Below are positions 2,297 to 34,517 of a DNA stretch of 34,922 bases, piece after piece. The translations under genes and the position numbers were made by a program. The stretch comes from Verrucomicrobiia bacterium (GTDB lineage Bacteria > Verrucomicrobiota > Verrucomicrobiia > Limisphaerales > UBA11358). The stretch covers positions 1-34,922 of the forward strand of contig JANWKE010000125.1 of assembly GCA_025451535.1 (NCBI GenBank), in the 5' to 3' direction. Below the pieces are notes generated by a model. The model was not told the origin of the DNA. It searched no databases and saw only the letters and a program-made list of their open reading frames with translations. Position 1 is the stretch's first letter, and every line of letters begins with the position of its first letter.

Positions 2297-2384
2297 GGGC
2301 ACTGCTTCGTCAGTACCCCATTCAATCAAATCAGTGCATCGACGAAGCGATGCCTTCCAAAACCTGCTTCGTCAGTGCCCTGAC
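2297..2384. repeat. REP family A hairpins, left cluster (3 elements)
   Basis: Three elements lie between nadD and the transposase stop. 2297-2318 is GGGCACTG, loop CTTCGT, CAGTACCC (one stem mismatch). 2336-2353 is GCATCG, loop ACGAAG, CGATGC, in the opposite orientation. 2364-2384 keeps CTG-CTTCGT-CAG and the right arm TGCCCTGAC but has lost most of its left arm. Palindromes with a constant six-base loop in both orientations beside a RAYT gene fit REP/BIME elements. Confidence 0.8.
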
Positions 2385-2386
2385 AT

Positions 2387-3028
2387 TTACCTTTCATGCC
2401 ACGCCAGGATATGTATTTCGCCAGCATAAGGCCAATCCTCCGGTTTTGCGACCAATCCTTTCCGGACAGGATTGCGCCAGACGTAATCCCATTTCTCAAC
2501 ATAATTTTCATCACGCCGCAACTGCGTGTCCCAAAAATCGAGTTGCCAGATGGGTTGTTCCGTCGAACGCGGCCAGCGGAGAGAAACCTGGCTTTTCCAA
2601 TACTTCATCCAACGTTTCAAGTTTACTGACCGATCGCGAGGCGCGCAAAAAAAGTGAATGTGATCAGGCATGATGACATAACGTCCGACCAGCCAGGTAT
2701 CTGCTTCACGCCAGGCTTTAAGAACTGCTTGCACCGCATCCTGCTTAGCCAGAATCGGCTTTCGTTCATGCGTGTTGACTGTCACCAAAACGATAATCGC
2801 CTGATTGCCTGACTCGACCGCAGGGTTATGAACCGGGTGCTTGCGCCAAACGTGCCAGTATGAACTCTGTTCGTTTATCGTTTGGATTGGAGGGTAGCGC
2901 TTCGTCGCTACCCAAATTCTTTGATTGGAGCACTGACCGGTCAGGGCACTGACGAAGCAGCGCCCTCCATGAATTGTGTCAGCAACATCGCCGCACGCCT
3001 TTGTATCGTTCTTCCGTAACGGCGACAT
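2387..3028 (-). CDS. REP-associated tyrosine transposase (RAYT, IS200/Y1 family)
   Basis: The C-terminal two thirds is a Y1/HUH single-strand transposase. It has the HUH motif in YVIMPDHIHFF (HIH at residues 123-125 of the long ORF) and the RAYT signature region ENYVEKWDYVWRNPVRKGLV, which should hold the catalytic tyrosine (Tyr176 or Tyr182). RAYTs bind and cleave REP hairpins and are thought to spread them; they are usually single-copy and lack IS ends. REP-type hairpins lie directly on both sides. The start is uncertain: the ATG at 3028 reads through REP sequence (residues ~19-47, including GGRCFVSALTG), which is unlikely to be ancestral. Family similarity appears to begin near INEQSSYWHVW (codon at 2878, ATA), so the native ATG may have been lost. 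The long ORF overlaps the cstA frame by 50 bases. It may no longer be expressed. Confidence 0.85.
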   Translation of the reverse strand: MSPLRKNDTKACGDVADTIHGGRCFVSALTGQCSNQRIWVATKRYPPIQTINEQSSYWHVWRKHPVHNPAVESGNQAIIVLVTVNTHERKPILAKQDAVQAVLKAWREADTWLVGRYVIMPDHIHFFCAPRDRSVNLKRWMKYWKSQVSLRWPRSTEQPIWQLDFWDTQLRRDENYVEKWDYVWRNPVRKGLVAKPEDWPYAGEIHILAWHER

Positions 3029-3128
3029 AAATTTTTTGGAGGGAAGCGCTTTGCCGCTTCGCTGACTCCGCCCGTGGCGCCGGTCTATGGGATTTTGTTT
3101 CAGTCAGGGCATTGACGAAGCAATGCCC
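2892..3128. repeat. REP family A hairpins, right cluster (4 elements)
   Basis: 2892-2913: GGGTAGCG, loop CTTCGT, CGCTACCC, a perfect 8-bp stem. 2944-2965: GGGCACTG, loop ACGAAG, CAGCGCCC (one mismatch). 3043-3060: GAAGCG, loop CTTTGC, CGCTTC. 3107-3128: GGGCATTG, loop ACGAAG, CAATGCCC, perfect. Stem sequences differ between copies yet stay paired, while the loop is nearly constant. Most copies carry GGAGG or CCTCC just outside one arm. The last two lie inside the cstA reading frame. Confidence 0.8.
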
Positions 3129-5402
3129 TCCACACGGTTGTTGTGCGCGTTCAAAATGCGATTCGCCGGACCATTCTTTCACCAGGCCGAGCGCAATGAC
3201 CGCCGCCCCGGCCGCCGTCCGAAAATTGGGCCCGGCTTCCTTGACGGCATAATCCGGCAACCAGACCGGCTCGGTCTCGTGCAGCACCGCCTGTTTGCGC
3301 CGGGACAGGAGCAGAATCCACTCACGCACGCTCACAAAAATGATGGCCGTGACCAACACCAGAAAAGTCCCTGCCACAGCGGCGTCGAGCACGTTATTGA
3401 ATTCCAGCATCCGGTTGGCACGCAATGATTCTTCAGCCGCATCAATGGCGGTTACATCGCCACCTGATCTAGCGGCAGTCAGATTTGCTACCAATCCCGG
3501 AGTCTTTTGATGCAAGACGCCTGCTTGGGCCAAAAAACCGATGCGCGGATCGGGATGCCAGATTTTTTGCACGCTGGCGGTGAACGTTACCGCCACCAGC
3601 CACACCAGCGGTATCAAAGTGATGAGCGCGAGTGCTGGTTTTCGTTTCGGAGGGGCGAGTTCCACGGGCCCCAAATTGTCAGGGCGTCGTGCAACTCTGC
3701 CCTCCGGCTGCAATTGCATTTTTAAAATAATCGTCGTGCCGAGGCATAGCGCGATGGCGGCCAGCATCTGGTTGGCAATGCCGAACAGTGGCCAGAGCGA
3801 GTTGATGCCACCCAGCGGATCGCGCACCCCTTGAATCAGAAAATAGCCCCACGCGCCGACCATCAGCGCGGCGGCTACCGGCGTGGCGAAGAAATTTTTC
3901 GGATCGCCCAACGGTTTCCAGGCACGACCCAGGACGCTTTGAATCAGGTAACGCCCCACGCGCGTGCCGGCGTCAAGTGTGGTCAGAATGAACAGCGCCT
4001 CGAACATGATGGCGAAGTGGTACCAGAGGTCGAGCCAGCGGCCGTTGACGGCCTTGGAAAAAATATGCGCCATGCCAACAGCCAGGGTTGCGGCGCCGCC
4101 CGTGCGGCCAAACAGGGTTTTTTCACCAAGCTGGTTCGCCAATGAATGCATTTGATCGGTCGTCACCGGGAAGCCGAGGGCAGTGACCTGGGCCACGGTC
4201 GCGGCGGGGTCGCCTTTGACGTTCATGCTGAAATAGACGCCGGGGTCGAGCGCGCAGGCGGCGATGAGCGCCATGATGGCCACGAAGGATTCGCAGCACA
4301 TCGCGCCGTAGCCGATGTGCCGCGCGTAGCTTTCGCGCGTAATCATTTTCGGCGTCGTGCCGCTGGCGATGAGCGCGTGAAAGCCGGAAACCGCGCCGCA
4401 GGCAATGGTGATGAAGCAAAACGGGAAAACTTTTCCGGCAACCACCAGGCCGGAACCGTCGGTGAACCGGGTGAGCGCCGGCAATTGCAGTACCGGCAAC
4501 ACGAACAAAATGCCGAAGGCCAGTGCCACAATCGTGCCCAGCTTCATGAACGTGCTCAAATAATCGCGCGGCGCGAGTAGGAGCCATACCGGCAGGCTGC
4601 TGGAAATGACGCCGTAGCCGATGATGGTCCAGGCCAACGTAATGCCGTGCAGACTGAAAAATTGCGACCAGGTCGGGCTTTGATAAACCAGCTTGCCGCC
4701 CCAGACCGCCAGCAACAGCAACGTGATGCCAAAGGCCGACGCTTCCAGAACCTTGCCGGTGCGCACAAAACGCATATAACAACCCATCGTCAACGCAATC
4801 GGAATGGTCGCGCCGACGGTGAACACGCCCCAAGAACTTTCCGCCAGTGCCTTCACGACCACCAATGCAAGCACGGCAAGCAGGATTATCAAAATTGCCA
4901 GGATGGCCAGCATGGCCACCACACCCGCCGGCGAATTCAATTCCTCCTTGACCATCTGCGCGAGCGATTTGCCATCGCGGCGGACCGAGCAAAATAGAAT
5001 GACGAGGTCCTGCACTGCGCCGCCGAGCACCACGCCGATCAGAATCCACAATGTGCCCGGCAAGTAACCGAATTGGGCCGCGAGCACCGGACCGACGAGC
5101 GGTCCCGGTCCGGCAATCGCTGCAAAGTGATGGCCAAAAACAATGAATTTGTTCGTTCTGACGAAATCCCGGCCGTCGTCGTGGACCACACAGGGTGTGG
5201 CCCGGTGATCATCGAGGGCAAGTATGCGCGCGGCAATCCACCTGGAATAAAACCGGTAGCCGATGGCGTAGGTGCAAACTGCCGCGATGACGAGATAGGC
5301 GGAATTGATCGGCTCATTCCGGCGCAAGGCGAGGGTCGCATAAGCCGCGGCACCGAGCAGCGCAACCAGCAACCAGAAGAAAGCAGCAATGGTTTTTCTC
5401 AA
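2979..5402 (-). CDS. cstA: Carbon starvation protein CstA (peptide/pyruvate transporter)
   Basis: This large multi-pass membrane protein (807 residues as read) belongs to the CstA family, which in E. coli imports peptides and pyruvate during carbon starvation. Family hallmarks include RFYSRWIAARIL near residue 50, then VFGHHFAAIAGPGPLVGPVL, QFGYLPGTLWILIGVVLGGA and QDLVILF, followed by many hydrophobic helices. The start is a TTG at 5402, which places the first membrane helix (TIAAFFWLLVALLGAAAYA) as in E. coli CstA; no in-frame ATG fits. The C-terminus is odd: after about GLVKEWSGESHFERAQQP the frame runs through two REP hairpins, encoding GGHCFVNALTE and a further tail of roughly 45 residues with no family counterpart. 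The native stop has probably been displaced by REP insertion. The start codon abuts the heptamer array at 5402-5490. Confidence 0.93.
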   Translation of the reverse strand: MRKTIAAFFWLLVALLGAAAYATLALRRNEPINSAYLVIAAVCTYAIGYRFYSRWIAARILALDDHRATPCVVHDDGRDFVRTNKFIVFGHHFAAIAGPGPLVGPVLAAQFGYLPGTLWILIGVVLGGAVQDLVILFCSVRRDGKSLAQMVKEELNSPAGVVAMLAILAILIILLAVLALVVVKALAESSWGVFTVGATIPIALTMGCYMRFVRTGKVLEASAFGITLLLLAVWGGKLVYQSPTWSQFFSLHGITLAWTIIGYGVISSSLPVWLLLAPRDYLSTFMKLGTIVALAFGILFVLPVLQLPALTRFTDGSGLVVAGKVFPFCFITIACGAVSGFHALIASGTTPKMITRESYARHIGYGAMCCESFVAIMALIAACALDPGVYFSMNVKGDPAATVAQVTALGFPVTTDQMHSLANQLGEKTLFGRTGGAATLAVGMAHIFSKAVNGRWLDLWYHFAIMFEALFILTTLDAGTRVGRYLIQSVLGRAWKPLGDPKNFFATPVAAALMVGAWGYFLIQGVRDPLGGINSLWPLFGIANQMLAAIALCLGTTIILKMQLQPEGRVARRPDNLGPVELAPPKRKPALALITLIPLVWLVAVTFTASVQKIWHPDPRIGFLAQAGVLHQKTPGLVANLTAARSGGDVTAIDAAEESLRANRMLEFNNVLDAAVAGTFLVLVTAIIFVSVREWILLLSRRKQAVLHETEPVWLPDYAVKEAGPNFRTAAGAAVIALGLVKEWSGESHFERAQQPCGGHCFVNALTETKSHRPAPRAESAKRQSASLQKIYVAVTEERYKGVRRCC

Positions 5403-5490
5403 TTTATGATTTGTGATTTACGATTGATGATTTGAAATGGCATTATTGGCGGCGCGTCAATCATAAATCATCAATCATAAATCGTAAATG
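5402..5490. repeat. Inverted 5+5 heptamer arrays between cstA and zinc-ribbon gene
   Basis: The left arm (5402-5436) is five 7-base units: ATTTATG, ATTTGTG, ATTTACG, ATTGATG, ATTTGAA. The right arm (5456-5490) is five: GTCAATC, ATAAATC, ATCAATC, ATAAATC, GTAAATG. The right units are reverse complements of the left phase GATTTAT, so the arms can pair across a 19-base spacer. The cstA TTG and the ATG of the downstream gene (5488-5490) are both parts of the array. No separate promoter is recognisable in the divergent spacer. Confidence 0.8.
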
Positions 5491-5784
5491 ACCCGTCACT
5501 GCCATAATTGCGGTGAACCGTGGACGTTGAACGGCCAGCCGGGTCGCGGCGAAATTTGCATGAAATGCCGGGTGGACCTGCGGGTTTGCCTGAATTGCGC
5601 GCATTACGACCCGCGCGCCGCCCACCAATGCCGGGAACGCCGGGCCGAACCGGTATTGGAAAAACACGTTGGCAACTTCTGCGAATATTTCGAGTTTGTC
5701 CTGCGCGAATGGACGCCGAAAACCGGCGGCAATCCGCGCGAGGCCGCCGCGCGCGACAAATTGAAAAAATTGTTCGGCGATTAA
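5488..5784 (+). CDS. Small zinc-ribbon protein, function unknown
   Basis: This 98-residue protein carries several closely spaced cysteines: CHNC at the N-terminus, CMKC around residue 30, CLNC around 40, then HQC and NFC. This suggests one or two zinc ribbons. The second half (YFEFVLREWTPKTGGN to KLKKLFGD) has no cysteines and ends in a basic, probably helical tail. No catalytic motif is visible; a nucleic-acid or protein-binding role is possible but not shown. The ATG lies in the last unit of a heptamer array, with no Shine-Dalgarno sequence. A frameshifted partial paralogue lies at about 8025-8164, on the far side of fcl-gmd; its conserved residues indicate that the family is a real coding family and that the C-terminal half matters. 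Confidence 0.8.
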   Translation: MTRHCHNCGEPWTLNGQPGRGEICMKCRVDLRVCLNCAHYDPRAAHQCRERRAEPVLEKHVGNFCEYFEFVLREWTPKTGGNPREAAARDKLKKLFGD

Positions 5785-7944: not shown

Positions 7945-8024
7945 ATGACGTGTGACCAGAATTGTCAATTTCGTTCCGTAAGGCAAGTTAAACCACTGCC
8001 GGCTTGCGGCGTAATAACGCCCAA

Positions 8025-8164
8025 GCTGAACCGGCCTTGGAAAAGAGTGCAGGCAATTTCTGTAATACTTTGAATTCGCCGTCCGGGCCTGGACACCGAG
8101 GGCCGGCGGTAACCAGCACGAAGCGTCTGCACGCGGGCAGTTGAAAAGATTGTTCGGCGATTGA
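8025..8164 (+). pseudogene. Decayed 3' fragment of a zinc-ribbon paralogue
   Basis: Translation gives AEPALEK, then GNFC, then, after a one-base deletion at 8064-8065 (TGT-AA-TAC where the intact gene has TGT-GAA-TAC), YFEF, W-T-P, GGN and LKRLFGD-stop. These align in order with AEPVLEK, GNFC, YFEF, WTP, GGN and LKKLFGD of the intact gene at 5488-5784; about two thirds of the residues are identical. The last 26 bases (8141-8166) match 5761-5786 at 24 positions. The N-terminal half is missing or unrecognisable before about 8000, beside gmd. A 60-codon ORF on the opposite strand here is only its shadow. Confidence 0.75.
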
Positions 8165-8174
8165 ACTCATGTTT

Positions 8175-8286
8175 CGTTAAAGCGTTGAAGGGTTAAATCG
8201 TTTAAGCGGATTGAGCCGCTTTAACGCTTCAATGCATCACGCTTCGATGTTTCAGAGCTTGAAACTTGGCAGTTGAAACTTGAAAC
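8175..8286. repeat. Octamer inverted array followed by heptamer array
   Basis: Left arm 8175-8206 has four 8-base units: CGTTAAAG, CGTTGAAG, GGTTAAAT, CGTTTAAG. The right arm 8219-8249 carries the reverse complement: CTTTAACG, CTTCAATG, a 7-base CATCACG, CTTCGATG. The arms can fold back over a short GC-rich centre. A second array, 8259-8286, has four heptamers: TTGAAAC, TTGGCAG, TTGAAAC, TTGAAAC, ending eight bases before the glycosyltransferase ATG. No promoter or ribosome binding site is obvious in this spacer. Confidence 0.75.
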
Positions 8287-8293
8287 TTTGCCG

Positions 8294-9169
8294 ATGAAAG
8301 TCAGCGGGTTCACTTTTTTGCGCAACGGGCACAAGCTCGGGTATCCGTTCATCGCGTCCATCCGCTCGACTCTGCCGATCGTGGACGAGTTTGTCATTGC
8401 GCTGGGGCCATGCGATGACGACACGGAAAAAATGCTGCGCGGGATTGGCGATCCCAAAATCCGCATCATTCCGACGCAATGGAATGAACGCATCCAGTCC
8501 GATTACAGTGTCAAGGGTTTTGTCTTTGGCCAGCAGAAATCCATTGCCTTATTCAACTGTACCGGTGATTGGGCGTTTTACCTGGAAGCCGATGAAGTCG
8601 TGCATGAGGATGACCTTCCAAAAATTCGCGCGGCGATGGAGAAATACCTGGACAATGCGCGCGTCGAGGCCCTGGCCTTTGATTACCTGCATTTTTACGG
8701 AAACAAAAACACCATCGCGTGGTCGCCGGGCTGGTATCGCAGCGAGGTGCGCATCCTTCGCAACACCATTCCCGCGTGGTCTAGCGAGTCGCTCTTTTTC
8801 AACGTGGTCGTCAGCCACAAGCAATCACGCCATCCGCGCGCGGCACACACGGGCGCCACAATTTATCATTACGGCTGGGTGCGCAGCGAGGCGCAGATGA
8901 ACTTGAAAACGTCCGAAATCTACCAGCATTGGGTTGAGAAACCGGTGCCGCCCGTGGATTACACCCAAATTGACCGGGCAGCGTTGAAACTCTTTACCGG
9001 CACGCATCCGAAGGTTGTGCAGGAGTGGCTGCCCAAGGCCGAAGGAATTTTTCGTGCCGACCCGAATCACCAGTTGACTTCGCGTGAAAAAAAACGTCGC
9101 CGGATGCTGTGGCTGGAGAAAACCTTCGGGCTGAAGTTTAACAAGAAGCATTATCGGTTGATTCGCTGA
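8294..9169 (+). CDS. Glycosyltransferase family 2-like protein
   Basis: This is probably a GT-A fold nucleotide-sugar transferase in surface polysaccharide synthesis. The protein starts MKVSGFTFLRNGHKLGYPF, a typical first strand and loop, with DEFVIALGPCDDDT as the second, and FYLEADEVVHEDD carrying the metal-binding acidic motif near residues 96-104. RSEVRILRN and the C-terminal basic segment KKRRRMLWLEKTFGLKF suggest a membrane-peripheral enzyme. The ATG at 8294 is chosen over the TTG at 8273, which lies in the heptamer array. The 3' end overlaps the convergent heptosyltransferase-type gene by 32 bases. The acceptor and donor cannot be told from the sequence. Confidence 0.85.
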   Translation: MKVSGFTFLRNGHKLGYPFIASIRSTLPIVDEFVIALGPCDDDTEKMLRGIGDPKIRIIPTQWNERIQSDYSVKGFVFGQQKSIALFNCTGDWAFYLEADEVVHEDDLPKIRAAMEKYLDNARVEALAFDYLHFYGNKNTIAWSPGWYRSEVRILRNTIPAWSSESLFFNVVVSHKQSRHPRAAHTGATIYHYGWVRSEAQMNLKTSEIYQHWVEKPVPPVDYTQIDRAALKLFTGTHPKVVQEWLPKAEGIFRADPNHQLTSREKKRRRMLWLEKTFGLKFNKKHYRLIR

Positions 9170-19736: not shown

Positions 19737-22043
19737 ATGCACTGGCTGCAAACGCTCGACATCGCATTGTTTCATTTCATCAACGGCTCGTTGCGCAATC
19801 CGTTCTTCGACCGGCTGATGCCGGCTTTGAGCGGTGGCGATGGCGTCATGCGCTGGTTTGTCTGGTTTGCCGTGGCCGCCATTGTCGGCACGCTCTGTTT
19901 CGGCAGCGCCCGGGCACGGCTGTGCGCTTTAATGATCACCCTCGTTGTCGCGCTCGGCGATCCGCTCGTCGTCAATACCATCAAACACCTCATCGACCGG
20001 CCGCGCCCGTTTGTCACCCTGCCGGACGCGCGGGTGTTCGGCGTCGTCGGCCAAGGCTACGTTCCGCCTGAGGAAATGACCGCCAACACCCCCGGCCTCA
20101 ACAGCATGCCGTCGGCGCACGCGGCCAACTGGTTCGCGATGACGATGGTGATGTTCCTGTTTTATCGCCGCAGTCTTTGGTTCATGTTGCCGATGGCGCT
20201 CGCCGTTTCATTTTCGCGCGTCTACAACGGCGTCCATTATCCCGGTGACGTGCTGGCGGGCATGATTCTGGGCGCGGGTTACGCCGCGGCCGGAGTGGTG
20301 GCGTTCCAAACCATTTGGAATTGGGCCGGAAAGAAATGGTTCCCCCTCTGGCACGCCAGCATGCCATCGCTTTTAAGTGCAAAAGGCAGAAGGCAGAAGG
20401 CAGAACCGGATACTCAAAGCTCTGCAAAGCCATCAACTATCAACTATCAACTATCAACTGCTGACTCCCACTGGCTCCGCCTCGGCTATCTTGTGACCCT
20501 GGTCATGTTGATGGCGGGCTGGGTGTACCTCGCCAGCGGCACCATTCAGCTCAGCCAGGACGAAGCCTACCAATGGGTCTGGTCCAAACACCTCGCGCTG
20601 TCGTATTACAGCAAACCACCGGGCATCGCGCTGATTCAATTTGCCGGCACCTCGCTCTTCGGCGACAACGAATTTGGCGTCCGTTTCTTTTCGCCTTTGT
20701 CTGCGGCGATTCTAAGCCTGATGGTGTTGCGTTTTCTGGCGCGCGAAGCGGGTGCGCAGCCGGCTTTCTGGCTGTTGCTCATCGTCATTGCCACGCCGCT
20801 GCTCGGCCTCGGCACCGTCCTGATGACGGTTGATCCGCCACTGGTGCTATGCTGGACGTGGGCCATGATCGCGGGTTGGCGCGCCGTGCAGCCGGACGGT
20901 CAAACGCGTCATTGGCTCGCCGTCGGCCTGGCCATGGGGCTCGCCTTTCTTTGCAAATACACCGCCGTGTTTCAAATCATCTGCTGGGCCATTTTTTTCG
21001 TGCTGGCGCCGAAGGCGCGCAACCATTTGCGTCGGCCCGGCCCGTGGCTGGCGCTGCTGGTGTTTCTGCTCTGCACCTTGCCGGTCGTGATCTGGAACTC
21101 CCAGCATGCCTGGAGCACACTGAATGACGTGGGTGGCGATGCGGGACTGCATTCACACTGGCGGTTGACACTGCGTTATTTCTGGGACTTTCTGTTCTCG
21201 GAAGCAGCATTGTTGAACCCGATTTTCTTCATCGGCGCACTTTGGGCAATGATTGGCTTTTGGAAATGGCGACTCGAGCGCCCACTGTGGTTGTATCTTT
21301 TCAGCATGGGCGCGCCGGTTTTTCTGGGCTACTGGCTTTACTCGTTTCATTCACGCATCCTGCCCAACTGGATTGCCGTCGCCATCCTCCCGATGTTTTG
21401 TCTGATGGTCGCTTATTGGAATGAACAGCGGCGCGTGGCGAGGCCATTTCTGGCCGTTGGCCTGGCGCTCGGCTTCTTTGTCTTTGCCTTCATGCACCAA
21501 AGCAAGCTGGTGGGAAAGCTCACCGGCGACGACTTGCCGCCTGCCAAGGACCCGACCCGCCGCGTGCAGGCCTGGAAACAGGAAGCTGCGCTGGTGGAAA
21601 CGGAAAGGGGAAAATTGCAGCAGGCAGGCAGGCCCGCGTTCATCATCTGCAGCCACTACGGCATCACGGGATTGTATTCGTTCTATATTCCCGAAGCGAA
21701 AGCGGCGATAAAATCCGACGAACCCCTGGTCTATGCCATGGATTCCGACGAGCCGCACAACCAATTTTATTTCTGGACGGAATACAACTACCCCGAACAT
21801 CGCCAGGGCCAGAATGCCATTTTTGTCAGCGAAGTGGATCCCTATCCGTTGGAAGCAGGCTGGTTCTGGAAATGGCTGAATCACGAACAAATCAACTACG
21901 GTAAAATTCCATCCCCTGCGGCCGCGCCGGAAAAACTGTTACAGCAGTTTGCCGCCGTTACCGATTTGGGCGAGCACGATATTGAACTTGGCGGCCGCGT
22001 GTTCCATCGCGTGCATCTCTGGGCGTGCTACGATTTGAAATGA
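19737..22043 (+). CDS. PAP2 phosphatase fused to GT-C (PMT/ArnT-type) glycosyltransferase
   Basis: The first ~205 residues are a membrane PAP2 lipid phosphatase with all three motifs: KHLIDRPRP (~83-91), SMPSAHAAN (~122-130) and SRVYNGVHYPGD (~158-169). Residues ~245-768 form a GT-C enzyme of the PMT_2/GT39 or GT83 type: a first helix followed by LSQDEAYQWVWSKHLALSYY with the catalytic-type Asp-Glu, then SKPPGIALIQF, many helices, and a soluble C-terminal domain. Such transferases use polyprenyl-phosphate sugars; the phosphatase could recycle the lipid carrier, so the fusion makes sense, but this is inference. The linker (residues ~212-243) is low complexity and is encoded by two heptamer arrays, indicating that two genes were once separate. 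A TACACT hexamer 7 bases before the ATG hints at a near-leaderless message. Confidence 0.9.
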   Translation: MHWLQTLDIALFHFINGSLRNPFFDRLMPALSGGDGVMRWFVWFAVAAIVGTLCFGSARARLCALMITLVVALGDPLVVNTIKHLIDRPRPFVTLPDARVFGVVGQGYVPPEEMTANTPGLNSMPSAHAANWFAMTMVMFLFYRRSLWFMLPMALAVSFSRVYNGVHYPGDVLAGMILGAGYAAAGVVAFQTIWNWAGKKWFPLWHASMPSLLSAKGRRQKAEPDTQSSAKPSTINYQLSTADSHWLRLGYLVTLVMLMAGWVYLASGTIQLSQDEAYQWVWSKHLALSYYSKPPGIALIQFAGTSLFGDNEFGVRFFSPLSAAILSLMVLRFLAREAGAQPAFWLLLIVIATPLLGLGTVLMTVDPPLVLCWTWAMIAGWRAVQPDGQTRHWLAVGLAMGLAFLCKYTAVFQIICWAIFFVLAPKARNHLRRPGPWLALLVFLLCTLPVVIWNSQHAWSTLNDVGGDAGLHSHWRLTLRYFWDFLFSEAALLNPIFFIGALWAMIGFWKWRLERPLWLYLFSMGAPVFLGYWLYSFHSRILPNWIAVAILPMFCLMVAYWNEQRRVARPFLAVGLALGFFVFAFMHQSKLVGKLTGDDLPPAKDPTRRVQAWKQEAALVETERGKLQQAGRPAFIICSHYGITGLYSFYIPEAKAAIKSDEPLVYAMDSDEPHNQFYFWTEYNYPEHRQGQNAIFVSEVDPYPLEAGWFWKWLNHEQINYGKIPSPAAAPEKLLQQFAAVTDLGEHDIELGGRVFHRVHLWACYDLK
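20383..20459 (+). repeat. Two heptamer arrays forming the fusion linker
   Basis: 20383-20403 is AAGGCAG three times without a mismatch. 20432-20459 is ATCAACT four times without a mismatch. They are read in frame as part of KGRRQKAE and INYQLST. The two arrays are not complements of each other. In this window such arrays otherwise lie between genes or at gene ends. Confidence 0.9.
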
Positions 22044-31205: not shown

Positions 31206-32929
31206 ACCCCCTCGATTTTGTTGTCCTGATTGGCAGCATGGTGGCCATCGCGGCTTACGGCGCCTGGCACACGCGCCGCCATCGGAACCTGAACCACTAT
31301 CTGCGGGGCGACGAAACCGTCGGCTGGCTGACCATCGGGATTTCGGTCGCCGCCACCCAGGCGAGCGCCATCACGTTCATCTCCACGCCCGGCCAGGGAT
31401 ACGAAAGCGGACTGGATTTCGTGCAGAATTATTTCGGCATGCCGCTGGCGCTTATTCTCATCGCCGCGGTTTTCCTCCCGATTTACCGGCGGTTGAATGT
31501 TTATACCGCCTATGAATATCTGGGGCACCGGTTCGATGCCAAGACCCGCTTGCTGGGGGCCGCCCTGTTTCTCGTGTCGCGCGGCCTGGCCGCCGGCATC
31601 ACGATTTACGCGCCGGCCATCATTCTGTCCACCGTGCTCGGCTGGCGGCTGGATCTCACCATCATTTTGAGCGGATTGCTGGTGATCATTTACACCGTGG
31701 CCGGCGGCAGCCAGGCGGTGACGCTCACCCAAAAGTGGCAAATGGCCGTCATCTTCGGCGGCATGGTGGCGGCGTTTGTTATTCTGCTGGTGAAGCTACC
31801 GACCAGTCTCGGGGACGCCTTCACCGTGGCGGGCGGATTCAAAAAGCTGGATGCGGTGAGTTTCTCAACCGACATCCACCGGCGTTATACGTTCTGGACC
31901 GGCTTGCTGGGCGGATTTTTTTTGTCCCTGTCTTACTTCGGCACCGACCAATCGCAGGTGCAACGTTACCTTTCCGGCTCGTCCCTGCGCGAAAGCCGGC
32001 TGGGCTTGATGTTCAATGCCGTGCTGAAGATTCCGATGCAATTCTTCATTTTGTTGCTGGGCGTGATGGTGTTTGTCTTCTACCAATTCGAGCAGCCGCC
32101 GGTCTTCTTCAACCACGCCGCCTGGCAACAGGCGGTCCAACATGATCCGGGCGCAAAACTCCAGGCGCTGCAACAGGAATTCACCACGGCTTACACGCAG
32201 AAGGAACAATGGATTCACCAATGGCTCGACGCCAAACACGCGGGTAATCTTGAAGCCGGAGCCGCCGCACGGGCGCAGGCATTGGCCGCGCTGGAACACG
32301 TCAACGCTTTGCGCGACGAAGCCCGGAACGTGATGCAGAAAGAAGATCCCGGTGTGACCAGCAACGATGCCGATTACGTCTTCGTCACGTTCGTTTTGGA
32401 CCATCTGCCGCACGGCTTGATCGGGCTGTTGATTGCGGCCTTCTTTGCCGCTGCGCTCCAATCGAAGGCCGCCGAACTGAGCGCGCTCGGTTCGACCACG
32501 ACGGTTGATTTCTACCGGCACCTGGTCAAACGCGAAGCCAGCGACGCGCATTACGTTTCCGCCTCAAAATGGTTCACCTTGTTCTGGGGCCTGGTGGCCA
32601 TTGCCTTTGCGCTGTTTGCAAACCTGGTCGAGAATTTGATTCAAGCCGTCAACATCGTCGGCTCGGTTTTTTACCCCGTGGTGCTGGCCCTGTTCCTGGT
32701 GGCGTTTTTCATCAAACGTGTCGGCGGCACGGCAATGTTTTGGAGTGCTTTGGCGGCGCAATTGCTGGTTCTGGTTGTTTACTCTTTGCATTACCGGTTC
32801 CCGGAACTCGATTTTTCCTACCTCTGGTATAATTTCATCGGCTGCGCCGCCTGCGTGCTGTTAAGCTTGGTCATTCAGGCCGTACTCGGTTCAACCAACA
32901 AGCTCAGAACTGTGACGAGTGACAAGTGA
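31202..32929 (+). CDS. Sodium:solute symporter (SSS family)
   Basis: A 575-residue membrane carrier of the SSS family, coupling Na+ entry to uptake of sugars or other organic solutes. Recognisable parts are the first helix LDFVVLIGSMVAIAAYGAWH, YLRGDETVGWLTIGISVAA and ATQASAITFISTPGQGYESG (Na+ site region in helix 1-2), AYEYLGHRFD, LSYFGTDQSQVQRYLSG (sugar-type signature), and HGLIGLLIAAFFAAALQSKA. A polar insert of about 85 residues (~302-388, HAAWQQAVQH to NDADY) lies between helices and is predicted helical. The last codons, TVTSDK, are encoded by a heptamer array, so the C-terminus has been altered by repeat growth. ATG 31202 is chosen by ATGA overlap. Confidence 0.9.
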   Translation: MNPLDFVVLIGSMVAIAAYGAWHTRRHRNLNHYLRGDETVGWLTIGISVAATQASAITFISTPGQGYESGLDFVQNYFGMPLALILIAAVFLPIYRRLNVYTAYEYLGHRFDAKTRLLGAALFLVSRGLAAGITIYAPAIILSTVLGWRLDLTIILSGLLVIIYTVAGGSQAVTLTQKWQMAVIFGGMVAAFVILLVKLPTSLGDAFTVAGGFKKLDAVSFSTDIHRRYTFWTGLLGGFFLSLSYFGTDQSQVQRYLSGSSLRESRLGLMFNAVLKIPMQFFILLLGVMVFVFYQFEQPPVFFNHAAWQQAVQHDPGAKLQALQQEFTTAYTQKEQWIHQWLDAKHAGNLEAGAAARAQALAALEHVNALRDEARNVMQKEDPGVTSNDADYVFVTFVLDHLPHGLIGLLIAAFFAAALQSKAAELSALGSTTTVDFYRHLVKREASDAHYVSASKWFTLFWGLVAIAFALFANLVENLIQAVNIVGSVFYPVVLALFLVAFFIKRVGGTAMFWSALAAQLLVLVVYSLHYRFPELDFSYLWYNFIGCAACVLLSLVIQAVLGSTNKLRTVTSDK

Positions 32930-32993
32930 CATGATAAAGCAACACCACGAACAACTTTCCCGGTCTGGTGACCTGTCACCTGCCACCTGTCAC
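32912..32993. repeat. Inverted heptamer arrays across the symporter stop
   Basis: The left arm is GTGACGA, GTGACAA, GTGACAT (32912-32932); it contains the symporter TGA. The right arm is CTGTCAC, CTGCCAC, CTGTCAC (32973-32993), five bases before the BshC-like ATG. The right units are reverse complements of the left phase (GTGACAG). GGTGAC/GTCACC also makes a local 6-bp palindrome at 32967-32980. Confidence 0.8.
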
Positions 32994-34478: not shown

Positions 34479-34485
34479 GTTTTAA

Positions 34486-34517
34486 CGCAAAGACGCAAGG
34501 GCGCGGAGACGCAAATG
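34486..34517 (+). repeat. Octamer array upstream of GxxExxY gene
   Basis: Four 8-base units, CGCAAAGA, CGCAAGGG, CGCGGAGA, CGCAAATG, occupy 34486-34517, directly after the BshB-like stop. They are imperfect but the period is unbroken. Bases 34518-34606 carry no other recognisable feature apart from the ribosome binding site of the next gene. Confidence 0.7.

Follow-up and report, generated by a model that had tools for sequence, protein, structure and literature searches.

A degenerate octamer hairpin beside a heptamer array in a Verrucomicrobiia genome: a candidate member of a dispersed family of polar two-arm repeat modules

The octamer part of a pair of short tandem arrays lying upstream of a glycosyltransferase gene in a Verrucomicrobiia genome (GCA_025451535.1) is read here, with moderate confidence, as one copy of a dispersed and polar two-arm repeat module that enters intergenic gaps, and sometimes genes, and whose arms then undergo slippage. 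Pairs of this kind recur as families at unrelated loci, with a fixed polarity and a similar size. The maintenance of both polarity and size despite differing units points to a process that makes or spreads pairs. The window is the whole stretch of DNA that was analysed, 34,922 nucleotides of contig JANWKE010000125.1 on its forward strand, and belongs to a source genome of 4.4 Mb in 188 contigs. At the locus under study it holds the following features:

About 8016 to 8164, plus strand: remnant of a small zinc-ribbon-like gene, truncated at its 5' end and frameshifted
8169 to 8175, plus strand: ATGTTTC, first copy, on the near side of the octamer hairpin
8175 to 8208, plus strand: left arm, four degenerate octamers CGTTRAAG; a scored run whose family recurs elsewhere
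8209 to 8216, unstranded: short loop between the scored arms (median in relatives about 16 nt)
8217 to 8249, minus strand: right arm, CTTYAACG-type octamers, the reverse complement of the left-arm unit; 8240 to 8249 by eye
8247 to 8253, plus strand: ATGTTTC, second copy, on the far side, overlapping the end of the right arm
8258 to 8293, plus strand: CTTGAAA-type heptamer array, up to the glycosyltransferase start codon; a similar array lies in the same place in genomes G009 and G026
8294 to 9169, plus strand: glycosyltransferase family 2 gene, its start taken as the ATG at 8294

At the sequence level, the hairpin consists of about four degenerate CGTTRAAG units followed by about four in reverse complement. 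From 8175 onwards the left arm reads CGTTAAAG, CGTTGAAG, GGTTAAAT and CGTTTAAG, and the right arm, ending at 8249, reads CTTTAACG, CTTCAATG, CATCACG and CTTCGATG, the irregular 7-nt unit CATCACG being present also in loci L073 and L075. The scored octamer runs cover 8175-8208 and 8217-8239, the remainder of the hairpin having been assigned by eye. When the 349-nt spacer at 7945-8293 was compared with exact dinucleotide shuffles, its period-8 score and its period-7 score were each reached by none of 500, and its inverted-repeat score by two of 500; two runs of the octamer family were observed in it, and none of 200 shuffles contained any. Folded as single-stranded DNA, positions 8168-8254 give -17.1 kcal/mol (z = -3.45), a value that none of 200 shuffles equalled. 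A T run of the kind expected from a Rho-independent terminator was sought by eye after 8249, where just TTT is followed by CAGAG. A preliminary description of this DNA had reported an inverted octamer array next to an unrelated heptamer array, behind a decayed gene. The shuffles bear out two adjacent arrays of periods 8 and 7 with the octamers inverted, and the decayed gene corresponds to the truncated zinc-ribbon-like remnant. The layout described there holds as well, with the amendments that the octamers are degenerate, that one right-arm unit measures 7 nt and that the octamer and heptamer units at 8175-8293 have TTGAA in common.

The heptamer array fills 8258-8292 with CTTGAAA, CTTGGCA, GTTGAAA, CTTGAAA and CTTTGCC. 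Its surroundings were compared across 30 glycosyltransferase loci, made up of the window and 29 of those returned by a search in which 52 of 97 genomes matched. In relatives the zinc-ribbon-like gene adjoins the glycosyltransferase directly upstream, and it is kept there in 16 of the 30 loci. The gap between the two genes is 23-26 nt in 7 of these 16 versus 129 nt in the window, and TAGCATC occurs in six of the seven short gaps. The name zinc-ribbon-like rests on the Cys pattern; besides the decayed copy at 8016-8164 the window holds an intact one at 5488-5784, and a Pfam scan of part of it (5560-5784) returned no family. CTTGAAA-type heptamers precede the glycosyltransferase start codon in three loci of the 30 (the window and its congeners G009 and G026), the array-holding spacers having been judged by eye and not by script. 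The octamer pair is absent from this locus in congeners. At its place G026 carries a different hairpin of 25 bp by eye (locus L048, just upstream of position 1537). In G040 the glycosyltransferase start codon is preceded by heptamers of the AATCGTA type. From the distribution of the CTTGAAA array over the window, G009 and G026, together with the other hairpin of G026 and the AATCGTA units of G040, the heptamer array looks older than the octamer pair and separate from it. It would be a vertically inherited, older single array in the glycosyltransferase leader.

Facing arrays recur elsewhere in a sample of the source genome. In 40 of its pieces, which include the window and total 681,997 bases, 32 period-7 arrays reach a score of at least 12, with none in one Markov shuffle, and each other period from 4 to 15 gives 0-4 arrays at the same score, except for the multiple 14 (23 arrays). 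Partners were counted for 59 period-7 arrays, taken at a lower array threshold from the 40 pieces plus contig C74, which had been chosen for holding an array. Within 600 bp, 18 of the 59 have an inverted partner at a score of at least 12 (12 pairs, both members being countable), whereas the controls amount to 4 direct, 1 reversed and 4 complement partners and to 15 of 464 in cross-locus comparisons. The preliminary description had named this count as its check and inverted pairing at chance level as the outcome that would speak against it; given that facing pairs are more frequent than the controls, that objection fails. Period-7 arrays are also enriched between genes, since 28 of 52 are intergenic in a sample that a home-made gene caller finds to be about 85% coding (about 15% non-coding bases), many others lying in called genes. 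Octamer runs are rare in this genome: at a score of at least 14 they number three in the own-genome sample, two of them at 8175-8249, with none in one shuffle, and the octamer pattern has three sites in the whole source genome.

Outside this genome the same units occur too, the octamer family being dispersed through the genus and the order. The octamer stretch of the window matches other loci in its own and in other genomes. The pattern GTTRAAGCGTTRAAGCGTTRAA, with one mismatch allowed, occurs in 18 of 97 genomes (most richly in G005, G020, G040, G082, G085 and G087) and the heptamer AAATCRT in 46 of 97, with no control matches for either. The preliminary description had favoured a common mechanism rather than one mobile sequence, a contrast that suits the adjacent heptamer array with its separate, older origin and does not suit the octamer hairpin, which is a copy of a dispersed family. 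A scan with a 25-nt octamer string gave at least 120 stretches; of the 80 loci listed, 45 were assigned to Verrucomicrobiota, and other or unnamed taxa account for the remaining 35. Polarity, that is, CGTTGAAG followed by CTTCAACG versus the converse, is 53:1 in relatives and in the Verrucomicrobiota among the matches listed, 2:2 in the 35 loci of other or unnamed taxa among the matches listed, and 10:1 in 40 further loci of unnamed taxa alone, outside the 80 listed; the count that includes those 40 is 62:2. For ATTTRYG heptamers the 97 whole genomes yield 67 matches in 28 genomes versus 0 converse, a number that includes overlapping registers and some orthologous sites and so does not equal independent events. 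In fetched loci the ratio is 32 to 1, with 0 in the shuffle. Most loci of relatives had been fetched for holding an array, and it is the own-genome sample and the whole-genome counts that are free of this bias, with the exception of the partner test, which took in contig C74. A purine-rich left arm was considered as a general rule of polarity and discarded, as it was found in 37 versus 32 of 72 inverted-like pairs (the set of 125 neighbour pairs comprising these 72, 13 direct-like and 40 that are neither).

The similarity in size is likewise apparent for both unit lengths. Octamer modules in relatives (n = 35) measure 31/16/31 nt for arm, loop and arm, and in heptamer modules (n = 32) both arms measure 29 nt, with a median gap of 22 and total quartiles of 76-85 nt. 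Loops are mostly unlike between loci when compared by eye. A conserved loop motif is doubtful: a 19-nt loop type recurs in five loci (L412, L424 and three more), but the last three are orthologous. The 19-nt loops of L412 and L424, which belong to two heptamer pairs, have similar ends (AGCGG...GGCG), and blastn at 1e-20 links neither of these pairs with the other or with the three orthologous loci.

Comparison of orthologous positions shows how the unit can change while the layout persists. By eye, one orthologous operon gap holds facing pairs with different units in different species. In the gap of locus L161, 10 of 31 loci are array-like by eye, with at least four unit types: CGTTGAAG in G040, CGAATGA-like in G024, GAAGAAT/GCAGAAG-like in G004, G005 and G009, AATTAAAAATG-like in G027 and TTTCCGC-like in G003 and G017. 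The remaining loci of this gap consist of 8 with 6-26 nt (one of which, L245, is array-like too) and 13 that are longer and have no clear array. That a single orthologous gap carries pairs built of different units, along with the enrichment of inverted partners, sustains the earlier claim that the unit varies and the layout is shared. A second gap lies between two genes that we take, from their start and end sequences, to be rpsJ and rplC. Of 30 loci, 22 have a short gap of 1-16 nt; the other 8 (L081, L195, L197, L198, L200, L201, L207 and L219) have a long one of 33-96 nt, which by eye is array-like in six and degenerate in two. GGA is found within 20 nt before the rplC start in 18 of the 22 short gaps versus none of the 8 long ones. 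The loci with arrays in this gap are without the Shine-Dalgarno-like leader that most others have, which indicates that the modules bear on translation start in these bacteria. Coding sequence is affected as well. A heptamer pair lies in frame inside an ORF that is presumably lpxB-like, judging from its motifs, between GHP and LLPGSR in three orthologues (G016, G028 and G029). The lpxB-like orthologues L422, L423 and L426 have a DNA identity of about 84-86%, and the pair of L422 translates as FTNDDLRFTN...VNRKSQI.

The window itself contains further arrays:

1635 to 1709, unstranded: facing pair of ATTTRYG heptamer arrays
5402 to 5489, unstranded: two ATTTRYG heptamer arrays that face each other, the right one overlapping the start codon (5488) of the intact zinc-ribbon-like gene
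20379 to 20459, unstranded: two four-unit heptamer arrays of the unrelated units GCAGAAG and ATCAACT, 26 nt apart, in the ORF 19737-22043
32912 to 32993, unstranded: GTGACNN heptamer arrays in facing orientation, flanked by codirectional genes, the left one overlapping the upstream gene's end; their inverted score of 8 falls short of the 12 required in the pair count

The arrays at 20379-20459 encode a linker between two apparently joined proteins, tentatively a PAP2-like part and a glycosyltransferase-like part; this suggests a gene fusion via an array-filled gap. A second octamer family, ACGCAAAG (variant TCTCTGCG), forms tandem arrays at L029 14179-14203, L039 10358-10385 and L183 848-875 and at 34485-34515 of the window, where the copy is weak.

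In the proposed module, about four units of 7 or 8 nt would be followed by a loop of 16-22 nt and then by about four more units in reverse complement. Modules would arrive as insertions and survive mostly in short intergenic gaps, sometimes in frame within genes, and after arrival each arm would turn over alone by replication slippage. Because the arms would slip independently, they would stay within the family and yet be unmatched to each other, and the loops would drift. Several unit families coexist in one genome, and one gap can be filled by different families in different species. Hairpin formation by DNA or RNA would be incidental, its effect on neighbouring genes being mild at most. Several lines of evidence favour such two-arm modules with slippage, namely the dispersal of the family, the short gaps of relatives at the glycosyltransferase and rpsJ-rplC loci, the different units at the gap of L161, the fixed polarity, the similar size, the in-frame pair in the lpxB-like ORF, the tests of arms against their own partners, the separate growth of arms, the lack of a wobble or flank signal and the lack of a common enzyme family. 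The similarity of octamer right arms (30 pairs) is 14.5 to their own left arm versus 16.8 to others of the same genome (permutation p = 0.99), and that of heptamer right arms (32 pairs) is 14.9 versus 15.7 (p = 0.97); octamer arms thus fit their own partner significantly worse than other arms. Slippage inside arms is plausible; locus L322, for instance, carries about ten copies of AGGTTGAA on one side, the opposite side being mainly CTTCAACG. Flank repeats gave p = 0.28 and 0.19 family-wide, which provides no signal of target-site duplication, and a flank repeat of at least 6 nt accompanies 1 of 58 octamer modules and 3 of 32 heptamer modules. The 7-nt repeat ATGTTTC around the hairpin of the window is possibly a target duplication, one that has no counterpart in the family-wide signal. 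Among the enzyme families sought, Y1_Tnp was found in 85 of 97 genomes, RVT_1 in 33 and Ku in 10, and none of the three was detected in all array-bearing genomes. Several of these results also weigh against the module reading. There is no target-site duplication signal, the loops mostly differ, unlike those of a normal mobile element, the worse fit of octamer arms to their own partner is not explained by it, and no enzyme family sought fits. Near-identical module copies were not noticed among the loci compared by eye.

An alternative that we regard as rather unlikely, though deserving attention, is that facing arrays are under selection in the leaders and tails of genes, where they would act as a hairpin in the mRNA or as a series of sites for a protein, the structure being what counts, so that units are free to vary. 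Consistent with it, arrays near gene ends keep a consistent orientation, singles included: single octamer arrays at one gene end are in the CTTCAACG sense at 19 of 23 starts and in the CGTTGAAG sense at 21 of 24 stops, and single heptamer arrays are in the reverse sense at 18 of 18 starts, with 6 of 7 at stops. The same count, which takes in the 40 loci of unnamed taxa outside the 80 listed, contains 60 single octamer arrays without a gene end within 30 nt and 13 inside genes, and single arrays may be decayed pairs, both of which go against selection. In some cases, the facing pairs of genomes from different families (G058, G087 and G004) are orthologous. Such pairs would be old, or recurrent at one site, and could therefore also mean selection; array-free orthologous gaps, however, are common, and pairs also occur within coding sequence. 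At the RNA level, no wobble excess was detected on the transcribed strand (G-U 14 versus A-C 9 in heptamers, 13 versus 11 in octamers), which makes RNA-level pairing unlikely as the selected trait, and Rfam 15 covariance models gave no match at gathering score in the whole window. The published position of TAACTGA arrays, for the most part immediately before start codons, is in line with a function in leaders (PMC4679880).

The preliminary description had itself proposed slippage plus templated fold-back copying, in which slippage makes an array, the nascent strand folds back and copies it, and each locus makes its own pair. The slippage half of this proposal stands as plausible within arms, but the fold-back half is very doubtful. 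The enrichment of facing pairs among period-7 arrays, the variation of unit type between loci and at orthologous gaps, and the expansion of arms on their own in L322 would all suit it. Nevertheless, a right arm is no closer to its own left arm than to other arms of the family, polarity is fixed where blind fold-back would not give it, one and the same unit is found at unrelated loci and across many genomes, and some neighbouring arrays, such as those at 20379-20459, have unrelated units.

Also improbable is an activity that extends the two 3' ends of a break or gap with short repeats, written in the 5'-to-3' direction, before the ends are joined, in a manner comparable to head-to-head telomere fusion. 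If ends were written in this way, polarity would be fixed, the arms would be independent of each other and come from a single pool, loops would not be conserved, units would sometimes differ between the two sides, and the old spacer would be replaced. On the other hand, an arm length of about four units and the dominance of few unit families are left unexplained by it. Reverse transcriptase and Ku were rejected as the writer after they were not found in several octamer-rich draft genomes (RVT_1 in G005, G020 and G087; Ku in G000, G005, G020 and G040); as the genomes are drafts, a missing RVT_1 or Ku may be an assembly gap. The wider notion that one bacterial mechanism of this type operates across unrelated phyla with different words, namely the GGGAATC repeats of Xanthomonas, the octamers described here and the ATTTRYG heptamers, appears to us a long shot.

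A mobile hairpin of the MITE or REP type, moved in trans by a Y1/RAYT-type transposase, would account for dispersed hairpins of fixed polarity and has a Y1-like gene with REP-like repeats around it in the window, but it is hardly probable, given that the repeats of that gene are of a different sequence, that G048 has heptamer arrays and no Y1_Tnp was found in it, that no target duplication is seen and that the interiors mostly differ. The gene in question, IS200/Y1-like (2387-3028, minus strand), scores 21.9 bits, just below the Pfam cut-off of 23, and the REP-like repeats GGGCAYTGACGAAGCARYGCCC that surround it (2300-3132) form a family unlike the arrays studied.

Several known repeat systems resemble the modules in part. 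REP and BIME elements are dispersed intergenic hairpins in operon gaps, with a conserved palindrome and a tag (GTAG or CGTC) at one end, and are associated with RAYT transposases. The modules share with them the dispersed hairpins in operon gaps and differ in their tandem units, variable loops and many unit families. The TAACTGA repeats of Beggiatoaceae, Cyanobacteria and Bacteroidetes are mostly intergenic, those of the main genome lying for the most part immediately before start codons, and comprise 169 direct sets and only one indirect repeat (PMC4679880). They are similar in being short heptamer arrays and in their position before a start codon, as the CTTGAAA array ends at the ATG at 8294, but they have a single unit that is almost always direct, and the units found here differ by eye from TAACTGA. 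Long simple sequence repeats with a heptamer excess have been attributed to polymerase slippage (as cited in PMC4692102 and PMC4679880); the 7-nt periodicity stands out here as it does there, but slippage alone does not predict facing pairs of fixed polarity. The nearest published relative is the set of GGGAATC heptamer arrays of Xanthomonas, mostly of four units and 89-93% intergenic, in which close pairs, convergent on opposite strands, make up 70 cases among 186 repeats in Xcc and 75 among 183 in Xac, most repeats lying between the same genes in both species and the long ones not (PMC4692102). Arrays of about four heptamers (the ATTTRYG arms measure 29 nt) and convergent pairs are common to both systems, whereas the hairpin at 8175 is built of 8-nt units. 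GGGAATC is one G-rich unit studied for G-quadruplexes, whereas here there are many units, octamers among them, without G tracts: none of CGTTRAAG, CTTGAAA and ATTTRYG contains GGG by eye, single variant units such as AAGGGTT occurring. Since the Xanthomonas pairs share the layout, that layout was already known and the arrays described here are not a new kind. Among titles and abstract starts of the open-licence literature, no account of facing array pairs in Verrucomicrobiota was recognised. The present analysis adds that units can be octamers, that many different units occur, that polarity is strict, that the two arms are independent of each other and that orthologous gaps differ in their unit. 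The polarity (67 versus 0), the similar module size, the uncopied arms and the differing units in one gap are not predicted by simple slippage, and these same facts make the mechanism testable by the comparison of close strains.
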